The position numbers and the translations under genes were made by a program. A DNA stretch of 22,951 nt from a virus: positions 1 to 22,951 of IMG/VR virus record IMGVR_UViG_3300047548_000159; one strand, written 5' to 3'. Positions 2,776-11,474 of the stretch are shown one piece after another. The notes beneath the pieces are model-generated. The model was given only the letters and a program-made list of their open reading frames with translations, did not search any database and had not been told where the DNA came from. Every line of letters starts with the position of its first letter. Positions within the stretch are counted from its first letter, which is position 1.

Positions 2776-5700
2776 ATGACTGCTGTTTCTAATCTTTATG
2801 CTGCCAAACTATATTCAGAACATCCTATCGCTATTTGGCCATTAGATGATGACGCTTCTTATATTTCCCTTATAACAGATACTCAGAGAAGATTTGAATC
2901 AGATTCTCCATATGCAGGGTGGACAATAACTAACGGAACAGCAAATGACTCTATAACCCTTCCAGATATAGGATCTCCATTTAATAGCGATATTTATGCG
3001 GGCATAGAGGGAGATATTCCAGTATTAGATGGAACAGTAATAGAGGCTCTTAGCCCAGACCTATTTCTTTTTAGTGATTGCAACGAAGATCTAGAAACAT
3101 TTTGCATAAGCATGTATGTTTATCAAAATTCAAACTATATCTCAGAATATGAGATAGGGTATGAGTATTATGACAATGATGTATCATCTTGGATACAAGT
3201 AACAACAACTTTTGATGCTCTTCCAAGAGAAGGATGGATACATCTTCAAGACACCTTTAGAATTCAGGAATTCGACGCTGACTACTGTCACATTATATTT
3301 AGAGCAATTGCTAATACTGGCGGCATATCAGAAGACTACGAACTAATACTCAATGGCATAACAGTTGGACAGTGGTCAGAAGCATTTACATCAGTAAGTT
3401 TAGGATCTAATCCACAAGCAGCGCCTTCTCCTTACACAACATTTGATGCCCTACCAGCGGATCAATATGGCTTGCTTGCTGATAATGCATATTACATGAT
3501 TGAAGACGGAAACTTATTAGCAAAGAATACTGGAATACCCATGATATTTGGATCAGAAAATGTTACTCGTCTTTATCCAACATCTGATGGAAGCCCTTCT
3601 CTTATTGTTCCAAACAAAAATATGTTTACTGAGTATGGAAGATTTCAAAATTTTACTTTTGAGTCTTGGTTAAGAATTAGACCAGTTACAAAAGAATCAA
3701 GAAAAATAATTGGGCCAGTAGATACTAATGATGGAATTTATGTAACAGAAGGATTTATTAGTTTAGTAATAAATAATAGATTTATATCTCATAATATTTC
3801 AGAATGGTATAGACCAATAATTCTTCACGTTGTAATGAAAGACGACAGCATTTCAATGATTATTAATGGAGAACAAGTTGGACAACTTAACTTTGATAGA
3901 AGAAGCCTAGTTTTTTCTGAAAGCGAATGGTTTGGCTTCTACACATATAATGATTTTGATATTTTTGAGATTGACTGTGTATCTATTTTTCCATATCCAG
4001 TTCCAGTTGAGATAGCAAGAAAAAGATTTGTATGGGGGCAAGGAACAGATCCAGTTGAACTTATCAATGACTCATTTGATGGAGAAGAAGCAGTAATTCA
4101 ATTCTCAAATGCAAGATATAATGCAAACAGAGTTTACCCAGATAAAGAAAGGTGGGATGCAGGATATTATAATAATTTAATTGCAAACACTAATTCTTTA
4201 TCTGTTCCACAGTATTCTTTACCTAATATAAACCTAGGAAATAGAGATATATCTGAATGGTATTCGGATAATAAAGATTTAAATGATCTATTGTACCCAT
4301 CTGGCAACCATCCATTATTCTTTTCATTTAGGCCAAACATAGAAGATGGTGTCTGGGAACCAGTAGATGGAACAAACTGGACAGAACAGTCATATTTAAA
4401 TTTTTCAACATTATCCTTTTTATCATCACCAATTAGTGCAATTTATGGGATCTTTGAGGTAGAGGAAGAAATACTTTCAGATAGACCACTAATAAAAATA
4501 GTAAACTCTATTTCTGGAAAGTCATTTGATATATCTATAAATGGATATGACGTTACATATAATTTTGATGGAGAAGAATTAACTGGAACAGGGTTTTCTT
4601 CTGGCACATCCCACTTCGTTGTTGGATTCCATATTCCAAGCCTATCTAACGCTTTCAACTTTGAACTTTCATCATTCTTTGGATCTCCAGAATTTTTGCA
4701 GGTGTTTATTGGCGGAGATGAATCATCAACGTTTGAAGGTAAAATATACAGGATAGGATTTGCAGATCAATCAAACTATAACGAAATTTCTCAGCACTTT
4801 GATTCAGATACAGGGATAGTTGCGTATGATGACAGCGCCTTATTAGAAGAACACTATGCCTCATATACTCTTTCTCCATTTTTTAGATACAATGCATTTT
4901 TCTTGGACATATCTGTTTCTGCTCAGTGGGAAGAGTATTTTCCACTATCTTCTTTTGCCTCCTACATAACAAAAAGAGATGGAAGCACAGCCTATGATAT
5001 TGACTATCTTCAATTTAATTTCGGATACCCATCTTTAATAGAGATTGTTGAAACAATTGTTGATAATCCAGACTGGATATATCAAGAACTTTTTGATGAA
5101 TACAATGGTCCAATTCAAAAAAGTTACGAAATTCTTGATAATGCAATTTTAACAGGGTACGCAGATTATGCAGCATTGGCATCAAATAGCATTACTGAAT
5201 ACCAAATTGATACTAGTGGGTCTTCTCTTGATGCATATGTAACATTCCAGTTGCTAGCAGAAGGTGCTGACGAACCTTTATCAAGTTTTATCAATACAAA
5301 AAATCTTACAGATTCTTATACCATTTATGCAGAAGAAGAAAACACAAATTTAGATCCATACAAAGCATATAAAACAAAGTTTAGGATAGTTGACGGAACT
5401 GTTATATATCCACCAAAAACAATTAACTTTGAAAGTGTCGCTATTGTTGTGCATTTTGATATTAATCAGGACGGAATAATTAGCAATCCGCTTAAGATAA
5501 AGGATATGCAGATAACTTCTAGATCACTGAATGATAATGGACTAACCCCCATTGGCACTAAAACAGGAACAAATATTTATCCATATGTAAGGTCTGGAAT
5601 ATATTATAGTGGTAAATCTAAGAATCCAATTTTAATAGGAAAAGACAACTTGCCATATTTATACCTGACAGAGAAAACAGGCATAAGAGTTTTAGAGGAT

Positions 5701-6440: not shown

Positions 6441-6449
6441 TGCTATAAT
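6441..6449 (+). promoter_or_regulatory. Extended -10 promoter TGCTATAAT, probable leaderless transcript
   Basis: TATAAT at 6444-6449 is preceded by TGC. The ATG at 6456 begins exactly 7 bases after the hexamer, so the expected first transcribed base is the A of the start codon. No Shine-Dalgarno sequence lies between them (TTAACC). The motif sits two bases after the stop codon of the preceding gene. Confidence 0.65.
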
Positions 6450-6455
6450 TTAACC

Positions 6456-6824
6456 ATGAGCAACAAGAAAAAAGCCCAAATTGGTCAATCAAAAGCCACA
6501 ATCATCCACAAAGACTACGAGTGGGGACTATATTTTTGGAAACTTCCCAGCGGCCACCTGTTTCATGACGGCCAAGGAAATCTTTTAAATATTCCATCTA
6601 TGAAGAACGACCTCGCCAAGATTGCAGAACTTAGAAAGGCTGCTGCTCATTACGGACAGCCAGAAGGAACACCGTGGTTTTATCCTGGAATTAAAAGAGC
6701 ATCTGATGAAACCTATTCTGAACAGGTAGAGAGAATGAAGAGCGGTCTTATTCCGAACCTTAACGATATGGGTGCGGTATATGATGCACAGAGAACTCTT
6801 AGGACATATGGAGACGAGGGCTAA
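6456..6824 (+). CDS. Small conserved-looking protein ahead of the portal, function unknown
   Basis: A 122-residue soluble protein with no motif I can assign. The N-terminus is basic (SNKKK). The middle has aromatic and Gly segments (WGLYFWKLPSGHLF) and the C-terminal half looks helical. An ATG at 6408 is in frame but would overlap the previous gene by 31 bases and place a promoter inside the coding sequence. The ATG at 6456, exactly 7 bases after TATAAT, is therefore preferred, and the mRNA is probably leaderless. The stop codon overlaps the portal ATG (TAATG), so the two are co-translated. By position it might be a small terminase or a portal partner. Nothing in the sequence shows a DNA-binding motif, so this stays unknown. 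Confidence 0.7.
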   Translation: MSNKKKAQIGQSKATIIHKDYEWGLYFWKLPSGHLFHDGQGNLLNIPSMKNDLAKIAELRKAAAHYGQPEGTPWFYPGIKRASDETYSEQVERMKSGLIPNLNDMGAVYDAQRTLRTYGDEG

Positions 6825-8494: not shown

Positions 8495-8503
8495 TGGTAT
8501 AAT
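8495..8503 (+). promoter_or_regulatory. Second extended -10 promoter TGGTATAAT upstream of the protease gene
   Basis: TGG plus TATAAT at 8498-8503, ending 9 bases before ATG 8513. A transcript from here would begin at about 8510 and be leaderless or nearly so, losing the AGGA used by transcripts from the upstream copy. Tandem promoters could give two mRNA forms. Confidence 0.5.
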
Positions 8504-8512
8504 AGGATCAGT

Positions 8513-9784
8513 ATGAATATTTCTAAAGCACATTGGGAATCTGAAGGAAATAATTTACGTCTCTCAATGCCTATTGCAAAGGTAGACGTTGAGCGTAGAG
8601 TTGTTTCTGGATTTGCTACTCTAGACAATATAGATCGCCAAGGCGACATTGTTCCATCTGAGGCAAGCATGAAGGCTTTTGATAAGTTTCGTGGAAATAT
8701 TCGTGAAATGCACGATGATAAGAAAGCGGTGGGCAAACTAGTTTCTTTCAAGGAAGACTCCTTCTATGATCAAGAAACTGGAAAAATATATAAAGGCGTC
8801 TTTGTTTCTGCTTATGTAAGCAAGGGTGCTCAAGATACTTGGGAAAAAGTTCTTGATGGAACACTCACAGGCTTTTCAATAGGCGGCAGCGTAAAGGATT
8901 ATGAGGATACATACAACGAAGACATGGATAAGTCAGTAAGAATAATTAAGGAATACGACCTATTTGAACTTTCTCTTGTTGATAATCCTGCTAATCAGTA
9001 TGCAAATGTTATTTCTATTGAGAAGGGTCATACTGGAGGGTATCTTTCCAAGGCTCTCATTGAGAACGTATTCTGGTGCAGCGAGGACGATATTGTCCAA
9101 CTATCTGCTGGTAGCACATCAGACTGCCCAAGATGCGATAAGAGTATGAACAATATTGGTTTCGTTGAAACTAATGACGCACAAAAGGCAGATGTAGTAA
9201 AGTCTATTCTTTCTACTGTCAAAAATGATGCAAAGGAGGTAAGCAAGATGGATAATGAAACAATTGAAACAGCCTCCACAGAAGAAGCAGCAGAAACTGT
9301 TGTAGAAGAAACTGTAGAAAAGGCTGTTGATGCAGAGACTGCTGAAGTTGAAAAGGTCACCATTGAAGTTGAAACAGAAGAAGAGGCTGCAATGGCCGAT
9401 GAGACTGAAGAAGAATCCATGGATGAAGAGGATGATGACATGGAGGATAAGGCAATGGGCGCTGGTGGCAAGGGATATGATGATGAACTTAAGCCAACAA
9501 AGTCTCTTGTTGATGAAATGCAGTCAACATTCAACATGCTTGCTGACACCATTAAGGCTCTTAATGAGAAGGTAGAAGAACTCAACAAGACGGTTTCTGG
9601 TGTAAAGCAGGAAGTTGATTCAGTAAAGAATGATTTTGGAAAGCGTGTAGATGCTGTGGAAAAGGATACCGCTTTCCGTAAGTCTGGCGATCTAGGCGAG
9701 GTCGTTCAGGAGCCAATTTTCGAAAAGGCTCAAAGATCACTATGGGGCGGTCGTTTCCTCACAAAGTCCGACCTATTCGCATAA
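8513..9784 (+). CDS. Prohead serine protease of XkdF/S78 type fused to an acidic coiled-coil scaffold
   Basis: A 423-residue protein. Residues about 15-170 are a phage maturation protease. The candidate catalytic residues are H67 (REMHD), S122 (LTGFSIGG) and E152 in FELSLVDNPAN, as in the His-Ser-Glu set of the HK97-type S78 family. Residues 189-208 hold a cysteine and a CPRC pair, a possible incomplete zinc ribbon. From about 246 onward the protein is very acidic (Glu/Asp runs to about 320), then forms a predicted coiled coil (about 335-390), then a basic and aromatic tail ending in LTKSDLFA. The C-terminal part looks like a scaffold that shapes the prohead and is cut out during maturation. 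An in-frame internal start at 9248 probably makes that part separately. It lies directly before the capsid gene, the usual order. Catalytic residues are assigned by motif only. Confidence 0.87.
   Translation: MNISKAHWESEGNNLRLSMPIAKVDVERRVVSGFATLDNIDRQGDIVPSEASMKAFDKFRGNIREMHDDKKAVGKLVSFKEDSFYDQETGKIYKGVFVSAYVSKGAQDTWEKVLDGTLTGFSIGGSVKDYEDTYNEDMDKSVRIIKEYDLFELSLVDNPANQYANVISIEKGHTGGYLSKALIENVFWCSEDDIVQLSAGSTSDCPRCDKSMNNIGFVETNDAQKADVVKSILSTVKNDAKEVSKMDNETIETASTEEAAETVVEETVEKAVDAETAEVEKVTIEVETEEEAAMADETEEESMDEEDDDMEDKAMGAGGKGYDDELKPTKSLVDEMQSTFNMLADTIKALNEKVEELNKTVSGVKQEVDSVKNDFGKRVDAVEKDTAFRKSGDLGEVVQEPIFEKAQRSLWGGRFLTKSDLFA
9248..9784 (+). CDS. Nested in-frame scaffolding protein (internal start in the protease gene)
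   Basis: ATG 9248 is in frame with the protease (its residue 246). It is preceded by AAGGAGGT at 9233-9240 with a 7-base gap, one of the strongest ribosome-binding sites in the window and placed inside a coding sequence. It would yield 178 residues: an acidic N-terminal half, a coiled coil, and a C-terminal tail that could bind the capsid protein. This mirrors lambda, where Nu3 scaffold is read from inside protease gene C. The site sits at the border between the protease/cysteine part and the acidic scaffold part, which supports a functional start. The sequence shows the site. Use of it is inferred. Confidence 0.72.
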   Translation: MDNETIETASTEEAAETVVEETVEKAVDAETAEVEKVTIEVETEEEAAMADETEEESMDEEDDDMEDKAMGAGGKGYDDELKPTKSLVDEMQSTFNMLADTIKALNEKVEELNKTVSGVKQEVDSVKNDFGKRVDAVEKDTAFRKSGDLGEVVQEPIFEKAQRSLWGGRFLTKSDLFA

Positions 9785-9800
9785 CAAATAAAGAAAATAC

Positions 9801-9808
9801 GGAGGTGA
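9801..9808 (+). promoter_or_regulatory. Near-perfect Shine-Dalgarno of the capsid gene
   Basis: GGAGGTGA is fully complementary to the 16S rRNA anti-Shine-Dalgarno core and lies 6 bases before ATG 9815. No TATAAT occurs in the 30-base gap, so the capsid gene is probably co-transcribed with the protease gene and reaches high output by strong translation. Confidence 0.75.
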
Positions 9809-9814
9809 AATACA

Positions 9815-10921
9815 ATGTCAGAAGAAATCTTGAAGAACCAGCCAAGTGAGTCAGGTGAGTATGGAGATCCTAACCCAGGTCTATATCAGGGTCAGGGCGC
9901 ATTCGCTGCTGGCGGCATTGGTGGTGTAAGTGATCCATCTGCTGGTGTATTGGGAAATATCCCAACAGCAGAGTATGGTGATACTACAGGCCCAAACGCC
10001 GTTAACCCAACAGGTGTTGCTTCAGGTCTACTCAATCCTGAGCAGGCTCGTCGCTTCATCGACTACGTTTGGGACGCAACAGTTCTCGCTAACGACGGTC
10101 GTCGTGTAACCATGCGTGCAAACACCATGGAAATCGAAAAGGTCAACGTTGGAGAGCGCGTTATTCGTGCTGCTGCACAGGCTCTTGGTGAGTACACCAA
10201 CGCTGGTGCAACTTTCACAAAGGTTGAACTAACAACCAAGAAGATTCGTTTGGACTGGGAAGTTTCAACAGAGGCATTGGAAGATAACATCGAAGGTGGT
10301 GCTCTTGAGGATCATCTCGTTCGTTTGATGACAAATGCTTTTGCAAACGATATCGAAGATTTGGCAATCAATGGTGATGGAGGCGCTGATCCATTCCTCG
10401 GAATCATGAATGGTTTCGTAAATCAGGTAACAACCAGTGGCGATGCCCACGAAGCAGTTGTAACTGTTACAAACAATGAGTGGACTCCAGAGGTAATGCA
10501 GCAGATCATCTACGCATTGCCACGCAAGTATCGTGCCCTTAAGAGTGGACTCAAGTTCTACGCAGGTACAGACACATTCGCAGGAATCGTTGCTAGCAAC
10601 GGTACACTTGCTGATGCCGTCTACACCTACGGAGCACGCGATGTCTACCTCTCTGGTGCAGACCAGACAATGGGCAACGCTCGCGTAACTCGCGTTCTTG
10701 GTGTTCCAGTTCTAGAAGTTCCTTACTACCCTGCTGATTATGTCGATTTGACATTCCCACAGAACCGTGTATGGGGCTTCCAGCGCGACATCACAGTCAA
10801 CCGTGAGTACAAGCCAAAGAAGGACACAATTGAATACACAGTATTCGTTCGCTTTGGCCTCACATGGGAAGAACTAGACGCAGTAGCATTCGCTGATGCC
10901 GCATCTGATCCTTCATCCTGA
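9815..10921 (+). CDS. Major capsid protein, HK97 fold
   Basis: A 368-residue shell protein that follows the protease-scaffold gene. The N-terminal arm of about 70 residues is Gly/Pro-rich and flexible. The region around residues 72-190 (LLNPEQARRFIDYVWDATVL, then RAAAQALGEYTNAGATFTKV, then DWEVSTEALEDNIEGGALED) has the N-arm and long-helix pattern of siphovirus HK97-type capsids. The C-terminal half carries the peripheral and axial domain strands, with VWGFQRDITVNREYKPKKD near residues 312-330. All 11 Lys codons are AAG and all 18 Arg codons are CGT or CGC, opposite to the neighbouring tail gene at 2776-6438. This is consistent with selection for high expression. A strong hairpin follows the gene. 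Confidence 0.93.
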   Translation: MSEEILKNQPSESGEYGDPNPGLYQGQGAFAAGGIGGVSDPSAGVLGNIPTAEYGDTTGPNAVNPTGVASGLLNPEQARRFIDYVWDATVLANDGRRVTMRANTMEIEKVNVGERVIRAAAQALGEYTNAGATFTKVELTTKKIRLDWEVSTEALEDNIEGGALEDHLVRLMTNAFANDIEDLAINGDGGADPFLGIMNGFVNQVTTSGDAHEAVVTVTNNEWTPEVMQQIIYALPRKYRALKSGLKFYAGTDTFAGIVASNGTLADAVYTYGARDVYLSGADQTMGNARVTRVLGVPVLEVPYYPADYVDLTFPQNRVWGFQRDITVNREYKPKKDTIEYTVFVRFGLTWEELDAVAFADAASDPSS

Positions 10922-10941
10922 TAATTAAATACAGTGTTTGT

Positions 10942-10970
10942 TGGGGAGTAGGTTTCGTGCCTACTCCCCA
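10942..10970 (+). terminator. Strong hairpin after the capsid gene
   Basis: TGGGGAGTAGG (10942-10952) pairs perfectly over 11 bases with CCTACTCCCCA (10960-10970) around a 7-base loop (TTTCGTG). No T run follows, so it may be a tail-less terminator of the kind proposed in Actinobacteria, or a 3' end that protects the abundant capsid mRNA. A promoter motif starts 11 bases downstream. Confidence 0.6.
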
Positions 10971-10981
10971 CAAGCATATTC

Positions 10982-10990
10982 TGATATAAT
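10982..10990 (+). promoter_or_regulatory. Extended -10 promoter TGATATAAT for the connector operon
   Basis: TGA plus TATAAT at 10985-10990, with no clear -35. Transcription near 10997 would include the GAGGAAAGG ribosome-binding site (10997-11005) ahead of ATG 11013. It appears to serve the five overlapping or adjacent genes 11013-14080. Confidence 0.58.
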
Positions 10991-11012
10991 TGCAATGAGG
11001 AAAGGTATAAAT

Positions 11013-11474
11013 ATGTCAGATTTTTCAAAAATGACCGTTGCTAAACTTAAGGAATATGCCGAAGAAAATGGCATTGATCTAGGTTCTGCAAAGACCAAGA
11101 CAGCAATGATTTCTGTGCTTACAGATACTAGTTCAAACATATCTTTAGCAGAGCAACCATCAGAAAATGTTATCGGATCAAATAAGATTGTTACAGAGAA
11201 GAGAACTCCTGTATCGAATACAAGGCCAAATGAAGATGGAGTTATGACTGTAGGTTCAGCGGATAATTTTAAGAACAAAGAGTTTAAAGTAGATACTGAA
11301 ACACCAGTTGGAAAGTTGGCTGTATATTCTGAAAAGAATATGAACTGGGTTGGTGTTGGAGTAGTTAAAAAAGGATATAATATCGTCACAAAGGAGGCAG
11401 CCGACAAATGGCTTACCCGCAAGGGTATTCGTGAGGCTACAGCAGAAGAAGTAGCAAGCCATTACGGTTTGTAA
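11013..11474 (+). CDS. Small post-capsid protein with SAP/Rho-N-like N-terminus, role unknown
   Basis: A 153-residue protein directly downstream of the capsid gene. The start ATG 11013 is chosen because GAGGAAAGG stands 7 bases before it. A TTG at 10938 is in frame but would run through the hairpin and the promoter. Residues about 2-40 (FSKMTVAKLKEYAEENGI) resemble the helix-extended-helix of SAP, LEM or Rho N-terminal domains, which bind nucleic acid or serve as small docking modules. The middle (about 45-80) is polar. The C-terminus (about 90-153) has a beta-rich part and a KWLTRKGIREATAEEVASHYG helix often seen in phage head-associated proteins. It could be a capsid accessory or a connector subunit. 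Similarity is by eye and the function is not established. Confidence 0.6.
   Translation: MSDFSKMTVAKLKEYAEENGIDLGSAKTKTAMISVLTDTSSNISLAEQPSENVIGSNKIVTEKRTPVSNTRPNEDGVMTVGSADNFKNKEFKVDTETPVGKLAVYSEKNMNWVGVGVVKKGYNIVTKEAADKWLTRKGIREATAEEVASHYGL

Follow-up and report, generated by a model that had tools for sequence, protein, structure and literature searches.

The stretch of viral DNA considered here (the window) is the 22,951-base virus record IMGVR_UViG_3300047548_000159, in which a predicted prohead protease–scaffold fusion gene forms an open reading frame of 423 amino acids (aa) at positions 8513–9784 of the plus strand. The protein matches the Pfam profiles PF04586 (35.9 bits, cut-off 21) and PF14550 (33 bits, cut-off 24), while PHROG 9427 spans its whole length (E = 2e-123). 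By these scores, which lie above the curated cut-offs, the product is assigned to the S78 (HK97-type) prohead proteases, and its profile matches at E up to 0.1 include no protease family other than S78. Residues H67, S122, and E152 are invariant across the aligned homologues, and the His and Ser are putative catalytic residues.

The gene is preceded by a portal gene and followed, after a gap of 30 nt, by the gene of an HK97-fold major capsid protein (9815–10,921, plus strand; 368 aa), which has the Shine–Dalgarno (SD) sequence GGAGGTGA at 9801–9808 (plus strand). The capsid protein matches TIGR01554, and its match to PF05065 (Phage_capsid) begins at residue 72, with no long N-terminal domain ahead of it. 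The interval between the protease and capsid genes contains no other scaffold gene. The open reading frame downstream of the capsid gene (10,938–11,474) contains a SAP-like segment and shows a weak match to the prohead protease inhibitor family phrog_8608 (1.6e-5), and its true start is probably internal to the listed frame, at MSDFSKM. The relatives found in Streptomyces and Rhodococcus phages point to an actinobacterial host.

The AlphaFold2 model of the fusion protein was built on 43 sequences (mean pLDDT 63, pTM 0.38), and begins with the S78 protease domain, a beta-domain formed by residues 1–160 (8513–8992, plus strand, as for all the segments that follow; pLDDT about 80–90). This domain is followed by a cysteine-bearing beta element (WC...CPRC; residues 183–219, 9059–9169), which is also evident in the alignment, and by a linker helix (residues 225–243, 9185–9241). 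Beyond the linker lies an acidic stretch (residues 246–325, 9248–9487) with a pLDDT of about 30, the modelled disorder covering residues 242–325, and then a long helix of 61 residues (327–387, 9491–9673), which is a probable coiled coil, given its coiled-coil matches. The flexible C-terminus carries the conserved motif SLWGGRFLTKSDLF (9734–9781), with the near-invariant columns W.GG.FL..SDL, and may be a capsid-binding end. The net acidic fraction is 0.148 in the tail versus 0.041 in the protease part. Profile searches with the tail recovered PHROG 9427, the family to which it belongs, together with coiled coils of a generic kind, and no known scaffold; the PDB sequence search returned generic coiled coils only, and a search of PDB folds with the complete model found nothing at E below 0.001. 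In a single clade of homologues (L031, L032, and L034), the beta element (approximately residues 185–215) has lost its cysteine pairs and kept the neighbouring fold residues, as if a putative metal site had decayed.

An internal SD sequence, AAAGGAGGT, is located within this gene at 9232–9240 (plus strand). The longer string GCAAAGGAGGTAAGCAAGATG comprises AAGGAGGT at 9233–9240, which is followed by a 7-nt spacer and by the ATG at 9248. This ATG is codon 246 of the 423, in frame with the protease gene, and is the sole in-frame start in the protease coding sequence with an SD match of more than 5 nt; the frame that it opens (9248–9784, plus strand) encodes 178 aa, a putative scaffold. The original prediction of a ribosome-binding site 7 nt before an in-frame ATG is thus borne out, and so is its placement of this start at the junction of the protease/cysteine part and the acidic coiled-coil part, since the domain limits of the AlphaFold2 model set codon 246 at the border. 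When the amino acids were held fixed and the codons redrawn according to the gene's own usage, an SD of such length arose in approximately 12% of the redraws for this sequence alone (p ~ 0.12), so that a single sequence is weak proof.

Homologous loci were collected from IMG/VR and the annotated phages, and thinned to 56 mutually related sequences less than 85% identical, which represent IMG/VR contigs, Streptomyces phages of the Stanwilliamsviridae, and the Rhodococcus phage NiceHouse, for whose protease a viral-contig search found no relatives. At the border of the protease and the tail, every one of the 56 carries an in-frame start (ATG in 47, GTG in nine) preceded by an SD, whose match is never shorter than 6 nt (6–10 nt, mean 8.2, versus 5.1 under the synonymous null). 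The SD and start are also kept beyond this set, in the Rhodococcus phage Trina (EGGQSN), and in Coruscant and Mandalore (KGGADQ). Taken one sequence at a time, the synonymous null is not rejected (median p 0.11 in the 56 related homologues), and this test was set aside as too weak to be the sole proof of the internal SD.

The residues encoded at the border vary, being AKEVSK, NKEVQP, TKEENP, TEEENP, KKEASP, DKEGNN, or KKENDN in IMG/VR contigs near the stretch, EGGAEQ, KGGAEQ, or NEGGVI before the internal start in the Streptomyces phages, and KGDFPQ in NiceHouse. The SD is found in two codon phases, the distance from GGAG to the start being 13 or 10 nt in 45 sequences and 12 or 15 nt in the other 11. 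Different residues and two codon phases indicate that it is the nucleotide signal, rather than the peptide, that is conserved. In L128, a six-codon insertion shifts the SD and the ATG together. Homologues that keep the protein and lose the SD and ATG had been named as the case that would refute the prediction, and the opposite is observed, with the residues changing and both signals staying in place.

Chance may, of course, produce such signals as by-products of conserved Lys-Glu residues, as the p of about 0.12 in this stretch alone might suggest, but this explanation is contradicted by the homologue comparison, in which varied residues in two codon phases carry one nucleotide signal, and it is scarcely credible. 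In the 45 sequences that resemble this stretch, the codons under the SD are invariant, with Lys encoded by AAG in 41 of 41 cases and Glu by GAG in 43 of 43, whereas the gene-wide usage of these codons is 57% and 33%, respectively. Variation is present at synonymous sites elsewhere, the median fraction of the major codon being 0.74 over 137 two-fold columns. The third residue under the SD ranks with the most conserved columns at its first codon base, but other columns do so too, and this was not taken as proof. Relative to other parts of the gene, the region of the internal start is weakly structured (median 88th percentile in the 56 homologues). One homologue (L067, from position 4001) has a stop at codon 146 that breaks the protease frame, through either a sequencing error or a mutation, and its internal SD and ATG are intact.

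Two other routes to a free tail product were considered. In phage P2, the release of the scaffold by self-cleavage of gpO has reportedly been observed, and a cut at the border of the fusion might free the scaffold in a similar way here, with the SD and ATG not being its main source. The fusion of a protease to the tail makes such a cut possible, but the conservation of the SD and start in all the homologues, despite the varying border residues, would be left unexplained, and this route is very improbable. A separate scaffold promoter, in the style of herpesvirus UL26.5, was sought and rejected, as none of the 56 homologues has a TATAAT in the 100 nt that precede the internal start.

The protease's own start has an appearance that formed no part of the original prediction. 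An extended -10 promoter, TGGTATAAT, identified from the sequence and its homologues, lies 9 nt before the protease ATG (8495–8503, plus strand). An exact TATAAT is found 7–10 nt before the protease start in 45 of the 56 homologues, mostly at 9 nt and often in the extended form TGNTATAAT, versus a chance rate of 1.3% in shuffled upstream sequences. This start is nearly devoid of an SD, with no match of at least 4 nt in 38 of the 56 and a match of 5–6 nt in only three; the SD of the capsid gene measures 7–9 nt in all 44 readable cases. In NiceHouse, the protease is preceded by TGGTATAAT-N9-ATG, and in the Loccivirinae (Patelgo and Wakanda, for example), by TTGGCT-N17-TATTAT-N6-ATG, while the -10 match is weak in the Boydwoodruffvirinae. 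Reading by eye gave TTGCAT-N17-TAATAT-N6-ATG in Coruscant and TGGTATAAT-N10-ATG in Trina, once the given start is shifted four codons inward; the annotated protease ATG of Trina (L163, 1544–1556), part of TATAATG, overlaps the -10 box, and the real start is probably located at this inward position.

A -10-like box approximately 10–12 bp before the start most probably denotes a leaderless gene, a type common in the Actinobacteria (PMC3160421). Given the -10 box and the near absence of an SD, the protease start is likely to be leaderless, or nearly so, and the 9-nt gap may leave room for a leader of some 6 nt at most. The scaffold could also be produced as proposed from a longer mRNA with an ordinary, leadered protease start, in which case the TATAAT would be an unrelated promoter. 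Head genes are often transcribed on longer late mRNAs, and 9 nt is among the longer gaps for leaderless genes (cf. PMC3160421), but an ordinary start accounts poorly for the near-constant distance of the TATAAT in the 45 homologues and the near-lack of an SD, and the promoter–ATG arrangement is repeated genome-wide, with 41 TGNTATAAT-N6-10-ATG sites in seven relatives versus four in the reversed control. A leadered start is, on this evidence, unlikely.

In the phage collection, the proteases next in relatedness are those of the T5-like Vibrio phages, which are 191–208 aa long and lack the tail, as well as any internal start preceded by an SD of at least 5 nt. The capsid proteins of these phages (463–465 aa) have about 175 residues before the profile, which starts at residues 176–182, and are approximately 100 aa longer at the N-terminus than those of the present family, in which the capsid proteins of StarPlatinum (331 aa) and NiceHouse (338 aa) match PHROG 1623 from residues 2 and 1, respectively. 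In HK97 and T5, the scaffold is the coiled-coil-like N-terminal (delta) domain of the capsid protein (PMC10275583). A delta domain would place approximately 100 aa or more before the capsid fold, and the capsid profile in the window begins before this, at residue 72. The extra capsid domain is thus accompanied by a short protease, as in the T5-like Vibrio phages, and its absence by a tailed one, as in this family.

The role proposed for the nested product in the original prediction, that of a scaffold, fits the gene order, the resemblance of the tail to a coiled coil, and the lack of a long N-terminal domain in the capsid protein, and is suggested by position, composition, and exclusion. The internal start might instead be used to make a protein of another kind, such as a regulator or inhibitor of the protease or a minor internal head protein, with scaffolding provided elsewhere. 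In favour of this alternative, profile and fold searches matched the tail to no proven scaffold. The tail is, however, acidic, has a probable coiled coil and a near-invariant C-terminal motif, and ends 30 nt from the gene of a capsid protein that lacks the long T5-like domain, which makes a function other than scaffolding improbable.

Nested protease and scaffold genes are already known. A passage of PMC8508860, citing Shaw and Murialdo 1980, places the scaffold of phage lambda (C/Nu3) in frame within the 3' part of the protease gene, and the present layout shares this in-frame nesting. The suggestion that it copies lambda C/Nu3 holds for the layout, but not for descent, given that the protease is of the S78 (HK97/T5) type, with no other family matched, while that of lambda is of the C type (S49), and the protease start has a leaderless look here. 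In the Mu-like phage KS10 (genes 28/29), the scaffold frame also lies in frame inside the protease gene, with its own SD, and its authors noted that this arrangement is found in many phages (PMC2628397); the KS10 protease belongs to another family, however, and has an SD-like AGAGAA and no leaderless promoter. The mark of such nesting, an internal in-frame start with a ribosome-binding site conserved beyond the amino acids, is present in every homologue examined here. The HK97-fold capsid protein and S78-type protease recall HK97 and T5, in which the scaffold is joined to the capsid protein, whereas here it would be joined to the protease. The leaderless (TA-led) genes of the Actinobacteria share the -10-like box near the start codon and the lack of an SD (PMC3160421), but here these features belong to a phage head gene, which combines them in one frame with a nested start led by an SD.

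The novel element in this otherwise known arrangement is the apparent pairing of two start modes. The open literature searched holds no description of a conserved pairing of leaderless and SD starts, and the open library, which is incomplete, none of the scaffold of this phage family. In 58 annotated Streptomyces phage records, the stretch is annotated as protease only, and the present finding supplies a name for their so far nameless scaffold. It would also mean that two related lineages join the scaffold to different genes, the T5-like one to the capsid gene and the other to the protease gene.

Considering the two start signals, their conservation, the domain border, and the lack of a rival scaffold gene, the gene almost certainly yields a separate scaffold from its internal start as well as the protease fusion, and it is highly probable that a single mRNA combines a (nearly) leaderless start for the protease fusion with an SD-driven start for the nested scaffold. 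RNA polymerase, directed by the promoter at 8495–8503, would generate an mRNA with its 5' end at the protease ATG or a few bases from it, and the fusion would be translated from this start at a modest rate. Ribosomes binding the internal SD of the same mRNA would begin at the ATG at 9248 and make the free scaffold in larger amounts than the fusion, ahead of the SD-led capsid gene. The free scaffold, through its acidic flexible stretch, coiled coil, and C-terminal motif, would co-assemble with the delta-less capsid protein, and the shared tail would carry the fused protease into the prohead, from which the protease would later remove the scaffold.

The two start modes, if used, would set the amount of each protein, and this conserved natural pair in one frame may serve as a model for how phages set the protease-to-scaffold ratio, which is open to testing in cultured Streptomyces phages. 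That the ratio of scaffold to protease follows the state of the host ribosomes during infection, rather than SD strength alone, is a more speculative idea and rather doubtful.

Starts of the leaderless type are also encountered at other positions. In the window, TGCTATAAT-N6-ATG at 6441–6458 forms a second such start, and the ATG at 6456 is probably the true start of the gene listed from 6408. In the clade of L008, the same promoter lies 9 nt before another ATG, which opens a leaderless-type upstream frame of 37 codons, and the internal SD is retained. It is found about 110 nt ahead of the protease in L008, L009, L010, L013–L016, and L022, and this upstream frame ends in a stop codon that overlaps the start of the protease, in what appears to be translational coupling.
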